Assembly (NCBI RefSeq): GCF_014467055.1
Contig: NZ_CP060696.1
Coordinates: 2,108,001-2,172,000 of the forward strand
Direction: 5' to 3'
DNA from: Caproicibacterium amylolyticum
GTDB taxonomy: Bacteria > Bacillota > Clostridia > Oscillospirales > Acutalibacteraceae
Length of the DNA stretch: 64,000 bases
The translations under genes were made by a program, and so were the position numbers. This document shows positions 36,170 to 44,160 of this stretch, piece by piece; the stretch's first letter is position 1; the number at the start of each line of letters is the position of its first letter. The notes under the pieces are model-generated. The model was not told where the DNA came from. It saw only the letters and a list, made by a program, of their open reading frames with translations, and ran no database searches.

Positions 36170-37417
36170 TTACAGCCGTTTCAACTGTACATCCTTTTCG
36201 TAGTGCTCAATTTGAGCAAACCACCTTTCATCCCCCGGAACTCCCTGACGACGGCAGTATTCTTCCCACACGTCTGAAAGGGGCATCATTTTTGCCTGCT
36301 CCATCAGCATCATCTTCTTGGTAAAGTTTCCTTCATCCTGCAGACGCTTCATCTCCTCATCTGGCTGAAGAAGTGCATTGAGCAGTGCTTCCTCAAATGC
36401 CCGCGTACCGATAACCCACGCTGCCACACGGTTAATGGAGGCATCAAAAAAGTCCAGACCAACCAGTACTTTGTCCAGTGCGCCGCAGCGGACGATTTCT
36501 TTGCAGATTTCCTGTATCTCATCCGTATAATTCACCACATGGTCGCTGTCCCAGTGTACCGGACGGGTAACGTGCAGCGGCACCTTGTCAAAAAAGCAAA
36601 GCAGCGCCGGAATCTTGTCACTAATATACTCAGACGGATGAAAATGTCCCGCATCCAGAAGATTGTAAACACCGGGATGCTGTGCCGCATAACTCATGTA
36701 AAACTCATTGGAACCGGCAGTATAAGACTCCACGCCAATGGCAAAGAATTTACTTTCCACAGAATCGATGACGTGCGGGCAGGATTCTGCAAAAATTTCA
36801 TCCAATGCTGCTTTCAGCCGCATACGCGGGCCAAAGCGGTCAGCAGGCACGTCCTTAAAACCGTCTGGAATCCAAACATTGTTTAAAACCTGATCGTTTA
36901 ATTCTTCACCAATACGTTCCGCAATACGGCGGGAAGCAATGCAATGATCGATCCAGAACCGGCGCACAGTTTTGTCGGGACTGGAAAGTGTCAATCCGTC
37001 CTTTACCATAGGATGACTGAAAACAGTGGGATTAAAATCAATGCCCAGATGATTTTCTTTTGCAAACTGCACCCACGGGGCGAAATGCTTGTATTCAATT
37101 TTGTTGCGGTCCACCCATGAATTTTCCGGTTTGAAAACAGCGTAGCAGGCGTGCAGGTTGATTCTCTTTTTCCCCGGAATCAGGCTTGCGGCTTTCAGGA
37201 AGTCCGCTTTCAGCTCCTCAAAGCTGCGGGCACGGCCGGGATAGTTTCCAGTCGTCTGGATGCCATTGCCGGCGCCGCCGTCCTTATTGTCAAAGCCAAC
37301 AACATCATCACCCTGCCAGCAATGAATACTGATGGCTTTGGCTGCACAGACTTTCAGGGCTTTTTCCGTATCTACACCGAGTGCGGCGTAACGGGTTTTT
37401 GCTTCTGTATAACTCAT
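36170..37417 (-). CDS. rhaA: L-rhamnose isomerase
   Basis: A 415-residue TIM-barrel isomerase converting L-rhamnose to L-rhamnulose. Recognisable segments are SIHCWQGDDVVGFD, INLHACYA, GIDFNPTVFSHP, LDAGHFHPSEYISDKI and RPVHWDSDHVV, the last two carrying metal ligands. Length is normal for the family. The start is the ATG at 37417 after AAGGAG, overlapping the rhaB stop as ATGA. Confidence 0.96.
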   Translation of the reverse strand: MSYTEAKTRYAALGVDTEKALKVCAAKAISIHCWQGDDVVGFDNKDGGAGNGIQTTGNYPGRARSFEELKADFLKAASLIPGKKRINLHACYAVFKPENSWVDRNKIEYKHFAPWVQFAKENHLGIDFNPTVFSHPMVKDGLTLSSPDKTVRRFWIDHCIASRRIAERIGEELNDQVLNNVWIPDGFKDVPADRFGPRMRLKAALDEIFAESCPHVIDSVESKFFAIGVESYTAGSNEFYMSYAAQHPGVYNLLDAGHFHPSEYISDKIPALLCFFDKVPLHVTRPVHWDSDHVVNYTDEIQEICKEIVRCGALDKVLVGLDFFDASINRVAAWVIGTRAFEEALLNALLQPDEEMKRLQDEGNFTKKMMLMEQAKMMPLSDVWEEYCRRQGVPGDERWFAQIEHYEKDVQLKRL

Positions 37418-38910
37418 AAACAGACTCCTTCTTTGATTCTTGTATAACTTCTCTTTTCCTGCACGGGTGCAAAGCACTGAATTTTAAAACTGCTGCACAC
37501 AGCTGCGCGTGCTTCCCGCAGAGAACAGTATTCTCCTGCCGCAATCATCTGCACCATCAGGTTTCCCAGTGCAGTTCCCTCCACCGGTCCGGCAAAGACC
37601 GGCAAGCCTGCTGCATCTGCGGTCAGCTGGTTTAAATAAGCATCTTTGCATCCGCCGCCCACAATGTATATGCTGCTGTAGTCTTTTTGTGCCAACTGCT
37701 GAAGCTGATGAATACTGTCCGCATAGCACGCCGCCAAGCTACGGTAAACGCAGCGCATGATGTCATTCACCGTTTCCGGCGCAGGCTGCCCGGAAGTACG
37801 GCAAACCTCCTGTACGGCTGCAGTCATACTTTCCGGCGCAAGGAATCGCTCATCATCCACGTCAACAATACCGCAGTAATCAGATGCTTCCGCAGCAGCA
37901 GCCAACTCATCAAAGCTCCATTTTTTGCCCGTATTACTGCTTTGGCTGCCATTTTTCTGTACATAAGAAACACCGTTCAGCTCCCGCCGGATGGATTGGA
38001 TCATCCACAAGCCCATAATATTTTTTAAATAACGGAAGCGGTACCATGCGCCACCCTCATTTGTGAAATTTGCCTTGCGGGATGCTTCCGTTGTAACAGG
38101 CTCTGAATTCTCAACACCCAACAGACTCCATGTGCCTGAAGAAATAAATACCGAATGTTCATCCTTCGTTGGTACTGCCAAAAATGCTGAACCGGTGTCG
38201 TGCGTAGCAGGCAGTACAACTGTACAATTAAAGCCGACCTGCTGCTGCACCTCCTCAGTTAAGGAACCGACGCAGGTACCCGGTACAGCAAGCGAACCAA
38301 AAATTTTCTCCGGCAGACCAAACTGAAAAAGCAGCTGTGCATCCCACGTTTTTGTATGGGCATTTACCAAACCGGTACTGGTAGCATTCGTGTACTCATT
38401 CTGCAGTTTACCGGTCAGGCAGAAATTAAAGTATTCCGGCAGCATTACGAAATGTGCCGCCTGATGTAGCTGCTCCGGATGCTCCCTTTTTTGTGCTAAA
38501 AGCTGATAAAGCGTATTAAACGGCTGCTTCTGAATACCTGTTCTGGCATAAAGTTCCTGCGGTTTGACCAGTGCTTCCGCATACTTTTCCATACCTGCGG
38601 TACGCTTGTCACGGTAGGCCACCGCATCCCCAAGCAGTTCTTTCTTTTCGTTCAATAGCACGTAGTCAACCGCCCAAGTGTCTATGCCCAAACTGACCGG
38701 CACTTTCCCAAGCAGCCGGCACTGCTTCATACCTGTAAGAATGTGCTGGCGCAGTGCCGGCAGATTCCAGCAGTCGTGACCGTTCTGCCGAATCTGCGTG
38801 TTATCAAAGCGGTAAATCTCCTCAAGCAGCATCCGGCCGTTCTCCACATGGCCAAGAATGTGCCGCCCACTGGAAGCACCGATGTCCACCGCCAAATAAT
38901 AGGTTTGCAT
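37414..38910 (-). CDS. rhaB: Rhamnulokinase
   Basis: A 498-residue FGGY kinase that phosphorylates L-rhamnulose at C1. The ATP phosphate loop is LAVDIGASSGRHILG at the N-terminus; LGIDTWAVDYVLL and the C-terminal adenosine motif IYIVGGGCKDAYLNQLTAD are family signatures. The start is the ATG at 38910 with AAGGAG; the longer frame to 39003 has no ribosome site. It is the first gene of the rhamnose operon. Confidence 0.95.
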   Translation of the reverse strand: MQTYYLAVDIGASSGRHILGHVENGRMLLEEIYRFDNTQIRQNGHDCWNLPALRQHILTGMKQCRLLGKVPVSLGIDTWAVDYVLLNEKKELLGDAVAYRDKRTAGMEKYAEALVKPQELYARTGIQKQPFNTLYQLLAQKREHPEQLHQAAHFVMLPEYFNFCLTGKLQNEYTNATSTGLVNAHTKTWDAQLLFQFGLPEKIFGSLAVPGTCVGSLTEEVQQQVGFNCTVVLPATHDTGSAFLAVPTKDEHSVFISSGTWSLLGVENSEPVTTEASRKANFTNEGGAWYRFRYLKNIMGLWMIQSIRRELNGVSYVQKNGSQSSNTGKKWSFDELAAAAEASDYCGIVDVDDERFLAPESMTAAVQEVCRTSGQPAPETVNDIMRCVYRSLAACYADSIHQLQQLAQKDYSSIYIVGGGCKDAYLNQLTADAAGLPVFAGPVEGTALGNLMVQMIAAGEYCSLREARAAVCSSFKIQCFAPVQEKRSYTRIKEGVCL

Positions 38911-39057
38911 ATGAGACTCCTTTTTGCTAAAATAGGATTGCAAGTGCAGAGCCGTTCCTCTGCTGTGTTTACGAGTATAACATGGGATTTCATGAATATC
39001 CATTCATTAAATTCTTCTGTTTTTTTGTAAAATTCTACTTTTCATGGAGGCGTATAA
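38911..39057. promoter_or_regulatory. Divergent promoter region of rhaB and its AraC regulator
   Basis: On the minus strand a good -10 (TATACT, 38979-38974) lacks a matching -35, which fits dependence on the AraC activator encoded on the other side. GGAGG for the rightward gene lies at about 39045. Confidence 0.5.
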
Positions 39058-39918
39058 ATGCTTTCCTGCAATCTGGATTTAGAACCACACAGTGTCTGGC
39101 TGCGCACAACACCGGGTGCAGCAGCGTTAGCGCAACCCTACCGCTGTACAGAAGCAGGGCTGTTTTACGGCGGCGCACGCTTCTCAACCGCGCGTACGGA
39201 AAAAAATAGTTATATTCTGTTTTTTACGCTGAAAGGTGCCGGGCTGATTGAGCAGGGTGAAACCACCCTGCTGCTGCCGCCCGGTCAGGCACTGCTGCTG
39301 AACTGCCGCCAACCCCAGAGTTACTGCACTGCGCCGGAGCACGGCTGCTGGCACCATTACTGGGCACATATTGACGGGAGCGGTGTGCAGGCAGTGGAAA
39401 AGATATTAAATCCGCATCATATCACTGCTGTACCACTTTCTGAGCTGACCGCGCGTGAGCCCTTTGAGCAGCTGCTTTCCTGTATTACCAGTGAAACAAT
39501 GCCTTCCATACTCCGGCAAAGTCTGGCTGTTCACACAATTCTCTCAACGATGGCAGTACAGTCTTTGGAGAATGATGCGGCCGCCTCAAATCGTGCGTTG
39601 GTTCAGCAAGCAGCGGAACATATACGTGCTTACTATGCTAAACCGCTTTCACTGGACAGGCTGGTTGCTGATGCACACATCAGCAAGTCTTATTTTCTGC
39701 GGCTGTTCCGGCAGTACATCGGCACAACACCTTACAATTTTCTGCTGTGCTGCCGCATTACCCGTGCAAAAGAACTTTTGGTAACGACCGACCTGCCTGT
39801 GGGTGAAGTTGCACGCAGCACCGGATTTGTAAACGAAGCAAACTTTTCCACGAGATTCTCCGCCATGGCAAAGCAAAGCCCCCTGCAGTACCGCAGAGCA
39901 GCACGGCGGGGGAACTGA
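39058..39918 (+). CDS. AraC-family regulator of the rhamnose operon
   Basis: A 286-residue activator. The N-terminal cupin (about 20-140) has LLLPPGQALLLNCRQPQSY and CWHHYWAHIDG. The C-terminal helix-turn-helix pair is LSLDRLVADAHISKSYFLRLFRQYIG and VGEVARSTGFVNEANFSTRFSAM, ending SPLQYRR. It is divergent from rhaB, hence RhaS/RhaR-like in role; rhamnose as ligand is inference. Terminator AACTGAT-TAC-ATCAGTT with T7 follows at 39913-39937, overlapping the stop. Confidence 0.85.
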   Translation: MLSCNLDLEPHSVWLRTTPGAAALAQPYRCTEAGLFYGGARFSTARTEKNSYILFFTLKGAGLIEQGETTLLLPPGQALLLNCRQPQSYCTAPEHGCWHHYWAHIDGSGVQAVEKILNPHHITAVPLSELTAREPFEQLLSCITSETMPSILRQSLAVHTILSTMAVQSLENDAAASNRALVQQAAEHIRAYYAKPLSLDRLVADAHISKSYFLRLFRQYIGTTPYNFLLCCRITRAKELLVTTDLPVGEVARSTGFVNEANFSTRFSAMAKQSPLQYRRAARRGN

Positions 39919-39937: not shown

Positions 39938-40454
39938 TGGACAAATCTCTTATCAAGGATTCCTGTAAAATGAATTAAGCAGCTTGCTGAAGTAACGACT
40001 GTATGGAATTCTGACCGGGGTATGCTCGGAAAACAGATCAGTCCTCTGTATATTCATGAGATACGGACTCGGAATGTGGGGGCTAAGCATTAAAACAAAG
40101 AATGGTGAAAATCGTATGTTTTATTGTATAAGCAAAAAGCTTCCGGCGAAAATTCTTCGGAAACTTTTATTCAGTTGTAAGTGTCAAGCTAGGCGGCATA
40201 TCGAAAAAAGTTGAAAAAAAGTGAGACACTGAATCTAATCACTGAAAGGTTCCAAATGAGTCTTTGGGACAAGGTTGAAACGGTTGATGCAACGGAAAAA
40301 TTTGTGATTACTTGGCAAAGACCAGCGTATGACCGAATTGACACGTATCAGCTCCAGACCCCGCAAGTGCCTTGGCTGGAAAACTCTCATGGAATTTTTT
40401 TACACGAACTGGCGTTCCCGCTAACAATTCATTTTTTTGAAAAAGCTTAAAGTA
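39938..40454. other. Gap between rhamnose regulator and riboswitch
   Basis: No well-supported gene before 40250. A terminator-like hairpin at about 40133-40168 (AAAGCTTCCG with CGGAAACTTTT) follows a short open frame with no start. That and the weak frame at 40256 suggest remnants of lost genes. Confidence 0.3.
40256..40450 (+). CDS. Small hypothetical protein, doubtful
   Basis: An ATG at 40256 after GAAAGG opens 64 codons beginning MSLWDKVETVDATEKF. No family is recognised. It ends five bases before the -35 of the riboswitch promoter. It could be a real small protein or the remnant of a longer gene. Confidence 0.25.
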   Translation: MSLWDKVETVDATEKFVITWQRPAYDRIDTYQLQTPQVPWLENSHGIFLHELAFPLTIHFFEKA

Positions 40455-40483
40455 TTGCATATTTATTCCGAGTGTGATATGAT
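40455..40483 (+). promoter_or_regulatory. Promoter of the riboswitch transcript
   Basis: TTGCAT (40455-40460) and TATGAT (40478-40483) are exactly 17 bp apart, placing the start near 40490, about 20 bases before the aptamer. Confidence 0.65.
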
Positions 40484-40507
40484 AGCAAAAGTAGAAATAA
40501 AAAGAAA

Positions 40508-40631
40508 ATAGCAAACCAATCCAAAGATTGGGACGCAAAGCCACGGGTCTAAGGTAAAAGCTACGACAGCCGGGTTGCCATGTATACGGGTAGTTTCGAA
40601 GGAGTCATGGCATTTTTGTGGCTCCTTTTTT
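40508..40631 (+). ncRNA. Cyclic di-GMP-I (GEMM) riboswitch with terminator platform
   Basis: The aptamer (about 40508-40581) fits the GEMM-I pattern: GCAAACC opening, a P2 hairpin AATCC-AAA-GATTGG, the invariant GGGACGCAAAGCC, a second hairpin, and closing GCCGGGTTGCC. Downstream GGAGTCA (40601-40607) and TGGCTCC (40619-40625) plus T6 form a terminator. TTGCCATG (40575-40582) can pair with CATGGCA (40606-40612) to block it, but shares bases with the closing stem. Ligand binding should therefore favour termination, an OFF switch. It precedes the STAS-like, KAS III-like and acyl-CoA ligase genes. Confidence 0.92.
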
Positions 40632-40838
40632 GTATGCTCATACAAATTTCCATTTAATTTGGAAAAACTGTTCAAATTTAGCTTCATCGTTTTTGTGAAT
40701 TATTAAAACTATATAAATGAAAATTGCCAACAATTTGTCAGGAAATTCATGGGACTTTTTATCTACCGCTTTCATTTAATTTTGAAAAATGGTTTTTTAA
40801 TCATTTTAATACAATTTCAAAAAGTGAGGATTTGAAGA

Positions 40839-41168
40839 ATGGGTACATTTAATTTTTCGATTGCAGGAAACGTAATGAAGGTAAGTCTTTCCGGGAATTT
40901 CGATAAGCCGACGGTAGCGAGCTTTGTGTCCCGCTATAAAACGGAAGTTGCAAAAATTAATCCCTCAACTTGCGAACTTGCAATTGAAATTTCACAGATG
41001 CAAGTGCAAACTGCAGACATGCAGGATACTCTGCAGGCATGCTTCAAGCTGTATGGCTCTACTGGCTTTAAGAAAATTAAAATGAATTGTGGGGATAATG
41101 TTGTGCTTGCCATGCAGGCACGCAGAATTGCAAAGTCATGCGGCCTTACAAATGTGGAAGTTAAATAA
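40839..41168 (+). CDS. STAS-like small protein
   Basis: A 109-residue protein with the alternating beta-alpha pattern of STAS domains (anti-sigma antagonist type): GTFNFSIAGNVMKVSLSGNFD at the start, a helix, then CELAIEISQMQ, a helix and FKKIKMNCGDNVVLAMQ. The usual phosphorylatable DSSG loop is absent (TADMQ instead), so it is not a classical SpoIIAA. It is the first gene after the c-di-GMP riboswitch, 208 bp beyond the terminator, with GAGGA upstream of the start. It could act as a partner or scaffold for the enzymes that follow. Family membership is by pattern only. Confidence 0.5.
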   Translation: MGTFNFSIAGNVMKVSLSGNFDKPTVASFVSRYKTEVAKINPSTCELAIEISQMQVQTADMQDTLQACFKLYGSTGFKKIKMNCGDNVVLAMQARRIAKSCGLTNVEVK

Positions 41169-41240
41169 ATCATCTTACGGGAGCAAGTTTGCTCCTGTTT
41201 TTTTATTCGGTAGGAAGTAGAAAGGACTGAAGTAAAACGT

Positions 41241-42230
41241 ATGATTCCTATTAAAATTAAGGAGATTTCTGTTTGTCATGGCAACAAAGTGGTCGACAAC
41301 ACACCTTATCTGGAACACTTCAAAAAGCAGGGTAAAGATGTGGAGCATTTCTTGCATGATGTAATCGGCAGAGATAAGCGGTATTTATTTGACAGCGAAG
41401 AGGATAACAGCCTGACTTACGGGATTTTGGCAGCGAAGGATGTGCTGAAAAAAACGGGATACAGCGGTTCTGATATGGATCTTATCGTTTTTTGCAGTCA
41501 GCTTCCCGAGTATATTGCGCCGCCGTGCTGCATGCACATTCACCACGCAATCGGTGGAAAAAGCGAATGCATTTGTTACGATATGAACGTGAATTGCGCC
41601 GGTATGACAATTGCACTGGAACAAGTCAGTAAATACATGTCCGTAACACCATCTGTAAATAAGGCGCTGATTGTTGGGTGCGATTACATTAATATGACGG
41701 TTGACCCTAACAGCGAGTACACCTATGGACACTACGGAGATGCTTCGTGTGCGTACGTTCTGGAAAAGACAGAGGAGCCATGCGGGCTGATTGACTCTGT
41801 TTACGATATGAAATCCGAAGAACACAACAATATTCTATTCCCCGGCTGCGGTTTTTCAAAGCTTTTTAAAGTGAAAGATCCGGCGGAACTGCGCCTGCGG
41901 TGGATTCCGTTCGACAGCAACGTTCCCAAAACGGCGACGGAAGGAATTATTAAAATTCTGAAACGAAATAACCTGCAGGTGTCAGACGTGAAAATGTTCT
42001 GCCTTTCCCAGTATGTTTACAAAAATATTGAAATAATCCGCGAGATACTTGGTGTGGAAGCTTCGCAAAGCCTGTACATTGGCGACGAGTACGGTTACAC
42101 CGGCACCACCAGCCCGTTCATTGTACTTTACGAGGCAATTGAACGCGGAATGGTGAAACGTGGAGACAAAATTGTTTTTTGGACGGTTGGCGCAGGAGCA
42201 GAAAATATTACTGTACTGTACCAGTACTAA
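41241..42230 (+). CDS. Ketoacyl-ACP synthase III-like enzyme with altered active site
   Basis: A 329-residue thiolase-fold protein of the FabH type. The nucleophile is C119 in YDMNVNCAGMTIALEQ. In FabH the other two catalytic residues are His (in PHQAN) and Asn (in GNTS). Here the first position reads FCLSQYVYKN (S256) and the second YGYTGTTSP (Y286), so both appear replaced. That argues against ordinary decarboxylating condensation and for acyl transfer to another nucleophile, as in KAS III-like acyltransferases. It lies between the STAS-like gene and an acyl-CoA ligase, which could supply its acyl donor. The alignment was done by eye. Confidence 0.75.
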   Translation: MIPIKIKEISVCHGNKVVDNTPYLEHFKKQGKDVEHFLHDVIGRDKRYLFDSEEDNSLTYGILAAKDVLKKTGYSGSDMDLIVFCSQLPEYIAPPCCMHIHHAIGGKSECICYDMNVNCAGMTIALEQVSKYMSVTPSVNKALIVGCDYINMTVDPNSEYTYGHYGDASCAYVLEKTEEPCGLIDSVYDMKSEEHNNILFPGCGFSKLFKVKDPAELRLRWIPFDSNVPKTATEGIIKILKRNNLQVSDVKMFCLSQYVYKNIEIIREILGVEASQSLYIGDEYGYTGTTSPFIVLYEAIERGMVKRGDKIVFWTVGAGAENITVLYQY

Positions 42231-42271
42231 TCAATAAATGGCGTTTAAGCTGGGTATACAGGAGGTAGAAA

Positions 42272-43918
42272 ATGCATTTCACAGAACAAACTATCGGTGC
42301 GTTTATGGATGAGAAGTGCAGGGAGTATCGAAATAAAGAAGCTTTGGTGTTCCCGGATGGCCAGGAAAGGTATTCTTTTGAGGCATTTCAAAAACTCTAT
42401 GAGGATATTGCAAAGGGATTGCTGTATTTGGGAGTCAAAAATGGTGATCATATTGCACTGCTGTCCCTGAACTCTCCCTTGTGGATTGCACTGCAAATTG
42501 CAGCGGCAAAAATCGGCGCTGTTTTGGTCTGCATCAATACAGGTTACATAAAAGAAGAATTAGAGTACGTACTGCGCCATTCCGAGGCAACAACCCTGCT
42601 CATGATGGAATCTTTTAAGAAAAATTCTTTTTTTAACTCCCTTTCTGAAATTTGCCCTGAACTTTCAACGGCTCAACCCGGGACCCTTTGCAGTGCCAGC
42701 CTGCCGAATCTTAAAAATGTGGTGATGTTGGACAACTGCGTGAAAAACGGTACGTTTTCCATAAATGACGTACTTGGCATGGCTGCGCAGGTAACAGATG
42801 CTACGCTTCAAAAAGCTTCCGATAGGGTGCATTGCAAAGATATTACGAATATCTATTACACTTCTGGAACAACCGGTAAGCCCAAAGCAGTCATGCTTAA
42901 CCACTTTGTTATTCTGAACAACGCGCTGCAGTCCGGCAGGCAGCTGGGGTACACCGGAAAGGACCGCCTGCTGCTCTGCCTGCCGTTGTTCCATGTTATT
43001 GGGTATGTGCTGAGTGCGTTTTCCTGCTTGCTTGTGGGGGCGACGGTTGTGATTGCCCCAAGGTTTGAAACCGAAAAAATGCTTGCCTACATTGCGCAGG
43101 AAAAGTGCACGGTGCTTAACGGCGTGCCAACCATGTTTAAGTTAATGCTGGACTGCAAAAATTTCGATCAGTATGATTTAACCAGTATATCCAATGGGTT
43201 TATTGCCGGTTCCTGCTGCAGTCCGGAACTAATTGCACGAATCAATCGTACCTTTGGAATGCATCTTTTAAACGTATATGGCCAAACGGAAGCGATTGCC
43301 ATTTGTCAGACAAAGGCAACAGATGATGACAGCGTACGTGCAACGACCGTTGGACAACCGATTCCGGGAATTGTTGCCCACATTGTAGACCCACAGTCCG
43401 GTGAAGAACTGTTTGATGAGCAGGAAGGCGAACTTTGTATGGACACAGTTTACCTGATGGACGGTTACTATAAAAATGAAGAAGCAACACGCAAAACGAT
43501 TGATGAGCGGAGATGGCTGCACACTGGTGACCTTGCATCGATTGATCCAAACGGTTATGTGTGCATCAAGGGCCGTATTAAGGACATTATTATTCGCGGT
43601 GGGGAAAATATTGCCCCTGCGGAGATTGAGGCAGTTATCAAAGAGTTAGACTCGGTAGAAGAGGCCGCAGTTATTGGGATACCCGATGAAGTGATGGGAG
43701 AAGAAATTTGTGCATTTGTTATTTTGAAGCAGGACAAATCGCTTTCATCAGATGTAATTCGGTCACATGTGCAGGCACGGCTGGCAAAGTTTAAGGTACC
43801 TAAGCACATTGTGTATGCGCAGGAATTTCCGGTCACTTCCAGTGGAAAAGTCCAAAAATATCTTTTGCGGAAGCAATTTTTAAAACAAGCGGAGCTCTTA
43901 CAGGAAACTGCAGTTTAA
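42272..43918 (+). CDS. Class I adenylate-forming acyl-CoA ligase
   Basis: A 548-residue AMP-dependent ligase that activates a carboxylic acid as acyl-AMP and then usually as a CoA thioester. Motifs in order are YYTSGTTGKPKAVML (phosphate loop), LLNVYGQTEA, WLHTGDLASIDPNGYVCIKGRIKDIIIRGGENI and the C-terminal lysine loop TSSGKVQKYLLR. It resembles medium- to long-chain fatty acid CoA ligases. It follows the KAS III-like gene by 41 bp and is followed by a terminator, so the transcript is likely riboswitch-STAS-KAS-ligase. An ACP-loading role is also possible. Confidence 0.88.
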   Translation: MHFTEQTIGAFMDEKCREYRNKEALVFPDGQERYSFEAFQKLYEDIAKGLLYLGVKNGDHIALLSLNSPLWIALQIAAAKIGAVLVCINTGYIKEELEYVLRHSEATTLLMMESFKKNSFFNSLSEICPELSTAQPGTLCSASLPNLKNVVMLDNCVKNGTFSINDVLGMAAQVTDATLQKASDRVHCKDITNIYYTSGTTGKPKAVMLNHFVILNNALQSGRQLGYTGKDRLLLCLPLFHVIGYVLSAFSCLLVGATVVIAPRFETEKMLAYIAQEKCTVLNGVPTMFKLMLDCKNFDQYDLTSISNGFIAGSCCSPELIARINRTFGMHLLNVYGQTEAIAICQTKATDDDSVRATTVGQPIPGIVAHIVDPQSGEELFDEQEGELCMDTVYLMDGYYKNEEATRKTIDERRWLHTGDLASIDPNGYVCIKGRIKDIIIRGGENIAPAEIEAVIKELDSVEEAAVIGIPDEVMGEEICAFVILKQDKSLSSDVIRSHVQARLAKFKVPKHIVYAQEFPVTSSGKVQKYLLRKQFLKQAELLQETAV

Positions 43919-43936
43919 AGAAATCCAAAAATTCCA

Positions 43937-43988
43937 AAAGGCACCTAAAGCACTGCGACAAAAACCGCGGCTTAGGCGCCTTTTTCTT
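43937..43988 (+). terminator. Terminator of the acyl cluster
   Basis: AAAAGGCACCTAAAGC pairs with GCTTAGGCGCCTTTTT; T-rich tail. It lies about 20 bp beyond the ligase stop. Confidence 0.75.
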
Positions 43989-44160
43989 GTAGTAAGAAAA
44001 CTCCCCGGTGATGCCAGACTGAGGTGCCCCCAAAATCAGGCAATATTTCAAAGTGAAAATTGTTCAAGCAGCTGAAATGGCTTATTCCTGTGCAAAGTGG
44101 ATCGGATCAGAGATAACGGGCGGAAATAAAGGGCTCTATCGCAAAGTATCACGATATCAC

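Follow-up and report, generated by a model that had tools for sequence, protein, structure and literature searches.

A cyclic di-GMP-type riboswitch heads an operon for an atypical KAS III-like protein and its presumed STAS-like partner in Caproicibacterium amylolyticum

Why would a riboswitch of a kind usually found on motility, chemotaxis, or adherence genes precede a set of genes for acyl chemistry? The question is raised by a small operon of Caproicibacterium amylolyticum, lying in a stretch of 64,000 nucleotides (the window; positions 2108001–2172000 of the 3.0 Mb single-contig genome, code G000), in which a cyclic di-GMP (c-di-GMP) class I riboswitch of the GEMM-I type is followed by genes for a STAS-like protein, a ketosynthase (KAS) III-like protein, and an acyl-coenzyme A (acyl-CoA) ligase. 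The KAS III-like protein falls within a clade, here called C-S-Y, that has Cys-Ser-Tyr where FabH has Cys-His-Asn. Our answer, held at slightly less than even confidence, is that the operon is a c-di-GMP-repressed module of the motile phase, in which an acyl compound is produced or altered by the C-S-Y enzyme and read by a partner, either STAS-like or a methyl-accepting chemotaxis protein (MCP).

The aptamer (40500–40582, plus strand) was matched by the covariance model RF01051 at 78.7 bits against a gathering score of 35 (E = 8.2e-14), with the full model (1–87) covered. At the gathering score, the window has no other listed Rfam match (a weaker, overlapping hit from the clan of RF01051 was omitted), and no other riboswitch class reached threshold there. 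A terminator scan and folding placed the intrinsic terminator of the expression platform at 40598–40634, with a stem at 40598–40628 of 13 pairs followed by a T run (free energy, dG, −13.8). Downstream on the same strand are the genes for the STAS-like protein of 109 amino acids (40839–41168), the KAS III-like protein of 329 amino acids (41241–42230; PF08545 and PF08541), and the AMP-binding ligase of 548 amino acids (42272–43918; PF00501, 2.9e-86; PF13193, 4.2e-19), which starts 41 bases past the KAS stop. Riboswitch, terminator platform, and all three genes are thus as the preliminary description of this DNA had them; an internal terminator and an unusual base in the aptamer, both discussed below, are features that it did not mention. 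The promoter that it had feared between 40632 and 40838, which would make the cluster independent of the riboswitch, was not seen: a crude scan of 40300–44100 gave no promoter-like site with at least 9 of 12 consensus bases in that interval, and five sites in total against a mean of 7.4 in shuffles. Ahead of the aptamer, a candidate promoter was noted by eye at 40455–40483 on the plus strand (TTGCAT, 17 nucleotides, TATGAT, with TG one base upstream as in an extended −10), which at 8 of 12 consensus bases falls under the scan threshold and is weak evidence. Because the riboswitch-STAS-KAS order recurs in two congeners (G006 and G009) and in more distant Bacillota, the arrangement in the window is not a matter of chance.

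The KAS III-like protein retains the thiolase/KAS III fold and the Cys nucleophile (Cys119), with Ser256 replacing the His of FabH and Tyr286 replacing its Asn. In an alignment of 151 sequences, drawn from 120 listed of 273 matches together with the loci and not all independent, the nucleophile is Cys in 149 (one S, one X), the His column holds S in 146 and T in 5, and the Asn column holds Y in all 151, in agreement with a profile alignment; a catalytic H or N at these positions was found in none. FabH needs both His and Asn for decarboxylating condensation. Since both are replaced, the protein is no normal condensing enzyme, and we do not file it as a condensing KAS III, although members of the clade carry the database name "3-oxoacyl-ACP synthase III" (ACP, acyl carrier protein). 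An ordinary FabH paralogue is rejected on the same grounds and by the presence of a separate, normal C-H-N FabH in the genome. The earlier label of an acyl-building cluster therefore sits poorly with a clade that lacks the His and Asn of FabH and with a ligase unmatched in two congeners. A sister KAS III clade (L060–L067, L103–L106) has Cys-Thr-Tyr (C-T-Y) at the same positions. In several cases its genes share a cluster, by eye, with those for a branched-chain amino acid (BCAA)-type ABC transporter and an alpha/beta hydrolase, along with a CoA-transferase-like gene and another KAS-like gene; such clusters might encode a pathway of uptake and catabolism not yet described.

Is the riboswitch a regular companion of this clade? 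Among 52 non-duplicate C-S-Y loci (L081 and L083 were dropped because their last 250 residues are identical to those of L040 and L044, and L049 for an X-masked stretch), a GEMM-I aptamer lies ahead of the unit in 12: the window, its congeners G006 (L102) and G009 (L026), an Oscillospiraceae metagenome-assembled genome (L024), Anaerocolumna sedimenticola (L025), Clostridium sp. C2-6-12 (L028), Clostridium puniceum (L030), Domibacillus enclensis (L039), L079 and L080 of a family code (f31) shared with a locus matching Clostridium sp. CMCC3677, and the 6–7 Mb genomes G277 and G081 (f53). In the last two, GEMM-I, a thiamine pyrophosphate (TPP) enzyme, a CMD-family protein, STAS, and KAS follow one another in one direction, the KAS being the fourth gene and almost 3 kb on (gene families named from a third genome of identical order); in L028, L030, and L080, GEMM-I, KAS, and an MCP form one run. 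Across 23 genomes picked for holding a KAS, 7 of the 45 GEMM-I aptamers found precede a C-S-Y operon, where 0.03 would be expected (0.04 at three genes per operon); with the genus of the window excluded, the count is 4 of 36 (P = 4e-9 at one gene per kb). These statistics ignore kinship, and the aptamer counts are lower bounds that exclude the GGC variant family, at most 150 of up to 480 first-look candidates having been scored per genome. The tree requires at least six changes of GEMM state. The regulatory part of our reading, namely a c-di-GMP-type riboswitch with a terminator platform on a conserved unit, is as firm as computation goes.

Two further c-di-GMP-I riboswitches occur in the same genome. 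One (L053:9250–9334; C1:1544249–1544333, minus strand) is directly upstream of a gene for a protein of 1153 amino acids. Small proteins and a signal-peptidase-like gene come next, and the group resembles, by eye, a TasA/SipW-type matrix operon. The other (L052:7461–7552; C1:2462460–2462551, minus strand) is near a pemK RNA match, and the open reading frames around it look PemK-, integrase-, and sigma-factor-like by eye.

What accompanies the KAS follows a rule. The gene beside it, with a partner separated from the KAS by the ligase alone also counted, is STAS-like in 26 of the 52 loci and encodes an MCP in 20; 6 loci have neither, and in no locus do the two occur together beside the KAS. In L036 an MCP is 5 kb distant; in G277 and G081, where the KAS adjoins a STAS gene and the riboswitch closely follows an MCP gene, the locus was counted as STAS. 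With MCP genes at about 0.5% of genes (251 matches in 50 Mb from 12 genomes, at one gene per kb), an MCP is the immediate neighbour of 7 of the 16 KAS genes in those genomes against 0.16 expected. The STAS family was found as a single copy, beside the KAS, in all five STAS-type genomes searched (G000, G006, G009, G688, and G277) and had no match in the MCP-type genomes G775, G578, and G415; the L028-type membrane sensor gave one match, beside the KAS, in G775 and none in those five STAS-type genomes. A crude hydropathy count divides the MCPs into membrane sensors, with about six hydrophobic segments, and soluble proteins (L032, L033, and L038). Membrane MCPs with related N-termini occur in L028, L030, L041, L080, L092, and L101, and further groups comprise L042/L045/L047/L048 and L085/L086, the links between groups being weak. 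On the tree, which is of a quick kind with 17 of 49 inner branches under 80, at least six changes between STAS and MCP are required, or 11 if "neither" is a third state; L079 (STAS) and L080 (MCP) are sisters with a support of 100, and both have GEMM-I. Such exchanges between STAS and MCP suggest that the partner acts as a reader and is not a second enzyme. Nor does the operon clearly depart from the motility theme of c-di-GMP riboswitches, as the same KAS adjoins a chemoreceptor in 20 of the 52 loci.

The 109-residue protein appears STAS-like by fold only: a SpoIIAA-type fold is predicted with a pLDDT of 92, no Pfam family scores above cut-off, and the Pfam STAS profile matches 2 of 16 family members, under cut-off (best E = 0.015). 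A match to Thioredoxin_12 (E = 0.16) is at chance level and was rejected. SpoIIAA-type STAS proteins conserve a Ser for phosphorylation where helix 2 begins; in a 16-row alignment of the family, neither Ser nor Thr is invariant at that point. None of the 54 relatives found has a Pfam domain, and most are without a name or "hypothetical," with two labelled "STAS domain-containing" and one "two-component sensor histidine kinase."

The presence of the switch is firmer than its direction. The 3′ end of the aptamer (UGCCAUG, 40576–40582) is complementary over seven pairs to CAUGGCA (40606–40612) in the 5′ arm of the terminator, so that a predicted antiterminator would span 40576–40612 on the plus strand; it was the best pairing found (dG −11.0). 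In minimum free energy (MFE) folds of transcripts ending at 40613, 40618, or 40622 the antiterminator hairpin is present, and at 40630 the terminator replaces it. The antiterminator could thus form first without ligand, while ligand that holds the 3′ strand in the aptamer would free the terminator, and by this anatomy we predict a transcriptional OFF switch. A terminator-like hairpin is present in all 12 leaders with GEMM-I ahead of a KAS, at dG −9.4 or better in 10 (L102 and L026 are weak, at −4.1 and −3.6 kcal/mol). With two terminator arms tried per leader, the antiterminator beats 95% of shuffles in three of the 12: L079 (0.6%) and L080 (0.2%), with the 5′ arm, and L024 (3.6%), with the 3′ arm. 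Broad conservation of the antiterminator is too weak on this count to be claimed. In Clostridioides difficile, functional class I switches are uniformly OFF, and ON switches are known in other species, according to the portion of PMC6366702 consulted; the direction here accordingly remains a prediction.

Between the STAS and KAS genes lies a second intrinsic terminator (41177–41205, plus strand; stem 41177–41198, dG −13.4), identified by the terminator scan, which none of 100 shuffles equalled. Of the 20 STAS-KAS gaps examined, 8 contain a comparable hairpin at dG −7.5 or better (the window, L006, L027, L029, L034, L035, L036, and L037), some of these 8 being from close relatives. Where the hairpin is present, the STAS-like protein is probably made in excess, with KAS and ligase expressed on read-through. 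The KAS start is only about 40 bases past this terminator, so that a promoter ahead of the KAS would have scant room.

The ligase, whose closest NCBIfam models are PRK12583 and PRK06187 (both under their cut-offs), follows the KAS in the window, L025 (as a split frame), L028, L030, L032, L033, and L038. Whole-genome searches of G006 and G009 gave no match at E 0.001, and because both congeners keep riboswitch, STAS, and KAS, the ligase is dispensable and was rejected as a core gene; it is an accessory that probably supplies acyl-CoA. When the neighbours of 30 loci were clustered, the families present in at least four loci were KAS, STAS, MCP, the ligase, an alpha/beta hydrolase, and a heterogeneous group, found at scattered places, that includes ABC ATPases. 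The accessory enzymes (ligase, TPP enzyme with CMD, and alpha/beta hydrolase) make a small-molecule product more likely than a pure sensor role.

From these elements we infer how ligand response, catalysis, product, partner contact, and output might connect. In motile cells, where c-di-GMP is low, transcription would continue because the 5′ arm of the terminator would be paired with the 3′ end of the aptamer; with c-di-GMP bound, that strand would be held in the aptamer and the terminator would form. Much STAS-like protein would be made, and less KAS and ligase, past the second terminator. The KAS would form an acyl-Cys119 thioester from acyl-CoA, supplied here by the ligase, but would not carry out the decarboxylating condensation of FabH; it would transfer the acyl group or yield a small acyl-derived compound. 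This product or acyl state would then be read by the partner, STAS-like here and a chemoreceptor in other lineages, whose reading would adjust the behaviour of motile cells. The functional part of this reading is accordingly an acyl-thioester enzyme with a signalling partner, presumably expressed when c-di-GMP is low.

A bolder version, which we regard as speculative and doubtful, is that C-S-Y ketosynthases are synthases of unrecognised acyl-derived signals in Bacillota, each with its own receptor (STAS-like, or a chemoreceptor of the membrane or soluble kind), the pair being gated by c-di-GMP riboswitches so that the signal is made and sensed only while cells are motile. CqsA and CqsS are a synthase/sensor pair, and the C-S-Y pair would be a chemotactic counterpart. 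Alternatively, the C-S-Y protein may make no product at all and may be a retired ketosynthase that senses acyl-CoA or acyl-ACP in the cytoplasm; an acyl load on its Cys would alter contact with the STAS-like protein or MCP and couple acyl-thioester status to motility. We consider this unlikely, since the ligase, the TPP enzyme with CMD, and the alpha/beta hydrolase fit an enzyme better, and the nucleophile is almost invariant in the alignment.

A more mundane possibility, and to our minds an improbable one, is that the operon serves ordinary salvage or catabolism of acyl-CoA and happens to be on in motile cells, with the STAS or MCP adjacency reflecting co-expression and not function. The C-T-Y sister clusters, with their transporters, hydrolase, second KAS III-like gene, and CoA-transferase-like gene, speak for it; the confinement of the STAS family to the side of the KAS in all five STAS-type genomes searched and the mutual exclusion of STAS and MCP beside the KAS speak against it. 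The proposal of the preliminary description, that the cluster serves to make a lipid or to acylate a surface factor at low c-di-GMP, fares somewhat worse. The adjacency of ligase and KAS III-like genes, shared with six other loci, is in its favour, as is L044, where the KAS is ahead of acyltransferase-, carrier-, and polyketide synthase (PKS)-like genes by eye. However, no lipid- or surface-building family recurred among the neighbours of the 30 loci, the ligase was not found in the two congeners, and the condensing residues are lost. Its third suggestion, an acyl signal, survives as one reading.

The ligand itself must also be weighed. At the ligand-contact position that we equate with G20 of Vc2 (the equivalence is our own reading), the window has A and not the usual G, as do 7 of the 11 other aptamers ahead of a C-S-Y KAS (L102, L026, L024, L028, L030, L079, and L080); G is retained in L025, a c-di-GMP-I-GGC variant, and in L039, L098, and L099. 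Ser in the GHxxGD motif marks cyclic GMP-AMP (cGAMP) synthases. The genome of C. amylolyticum has eight MCP matches and nine GGDEF matches, and in the latter the last position of the motif is D in eight and N in one; as GHxxGS is absent from all nine domains found, a cGAMP synthase in this genome was rejected. In the excerpts consulted, a G20A GEMM-I aptamer binds cGAMP (PMC6274999), whereas the G20-equivalent is described as a selectivity factor and no hard filter, and cGAMP riboswitches as occurring in several Gram-negatives (PMC9262584). Judged by sequence, c-di-GMP would be the likelier ligand, and sensing of 3′,3′-cGAMP in its place is, for all that the A is widely shared, very improbable.

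Several observations weigh against the motile-phase module that we favour. GEMM-I was not found in 40 of the 52 loci, so control by c-di-GMP is recurrent, not universal, and the A at position 20 leaves selectivity against cGAMP unsettled. The OFF logic of the preliminary description stands by anatomy and by the folds of partial transcripts, but its support from shuffles is weak: 17% of shuffles pair as well as the window, which is no better than chance, and 9 of the 12 leaders are without a pairing at 5%. Moreover, the MFE of the full-length, ligand-free leader contains the terminator (−39.7), 6.8 kcal/mol below the fold with the antiterminator forced (−32.9); as the terminator wins in the finished leader even in the absence of ligand, any read-through would need to be under kinetic control. 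Owing to the internal terminator, expression of KAS and ligase may be weak or need another input. The partner rule has its own exceptions. Six loci have neither partner (L040, L043, L044, L078, L082, and L096; L044 was so scored because the profile finds no STAS), the STAS gene is on the opposite strand in 4 of 26 (L046, L050, L090, and L091), and the MCP gene is so in L032, L038, and the loci of one genus code (g344), which contributes 7 of the 20 MCP loci, three genomes giving two each. The MCP-type genome G640 has one distant STAS relative elsewhere. Finally, the catabolic look of the C-T-Y transporter and CoA-transferase-like clusters, together with the PKS-like cluster at L044, makes a metabolic role possible.

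Further observations concern individual loci. In Ruminiclostridium sufflavum (L044/L083), the C-S-Y KAS precedes the acyltransferase-, carrier-, and PKS-like genes mentioned above, and a small open reading frame before the KAS looks STAS-like, yet the profile does not recognise it. In the congener G009, the STAS gene seems to begin at ATA (L005:1024) and in G006 the KAS gene at ATT (L006:1492), each with a purine-rich, ribosome-binding-like stretch upstream; the database protein for the latter (P0008) begins 16 codons downstream of the apparent ATT. About 200 bases after the G006 KAS is a Na+ riboswitch (DUF1646 motif; L102:9569–9620), before an antiporter-like gene (by eye). Upstream of the operon in the window (36170–39918) are, by eye, rhamnose isomerase-, rhamnulokinase-, and AraC-family regulator-like genes, with Pfam support for the regulator only.

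If our reading is right, a signalling module of acyl chemistry is also among the targets of c-di-GMP riboswitches, and a Bacillota clade named as 3-oxoacyl-ACP synthase III in databases is misnamed. The partner rule offers a handle on whether acyl-thioester metabolism feeds chemotaxis or anti-sigma-type machinery, and for an operon this small, deletion and reconstitution should be easy. Among the open-licence literature matches listed, no title or abstract opening describes this operon, although absence is not proven thereby.

Several known systems invite comparison. Cd1 of C. difficile, located before the flgB operon, likewise combines an RF01051 aptamer with a terminator/antiterminator platform (PMC6366702, in part); the switch in the window heads a STAS/KAS operon, not flagellar genes, and has A at the G20-equivalent, where Cd1 has G11 (PMC9262584, in part). 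Bc1 of the Bacillus cereus group puts chemoreceptor (MCP) genes under c-di-GMP-I control, much as in L028, L030, and L080, but is reported to turn on a reporter (both from part of PMC11218506); "3-oxoacyl" and "STAS" are absent from the main text of that paper. Compared with the STAS-fold regulators SpoIIAA, RsbV, and SiaC, the STAS-like protein of the window has about 10% sequence identity and no Pfam STAS match above cut-off, and its gene adjoins a KAS in the genomes searched, with one distant exception. In contrast to FabH/KAS III, C-S-Y proteins have Ser/Thr and Tyr for His and Asn, and the genome of C. amylolyticum has its own FabH. PqsBC and ChlB3/CerJ, in the source portions consulted, are likewise KAS III folds with altered triads employed in signal making or acyl transfer; PqsC (Cys129-His269) and ChlB3 (Cys113-His296-Asp301) retain the catalytic His, whereas C-S-Y proteins have Ser or Thr in its place.

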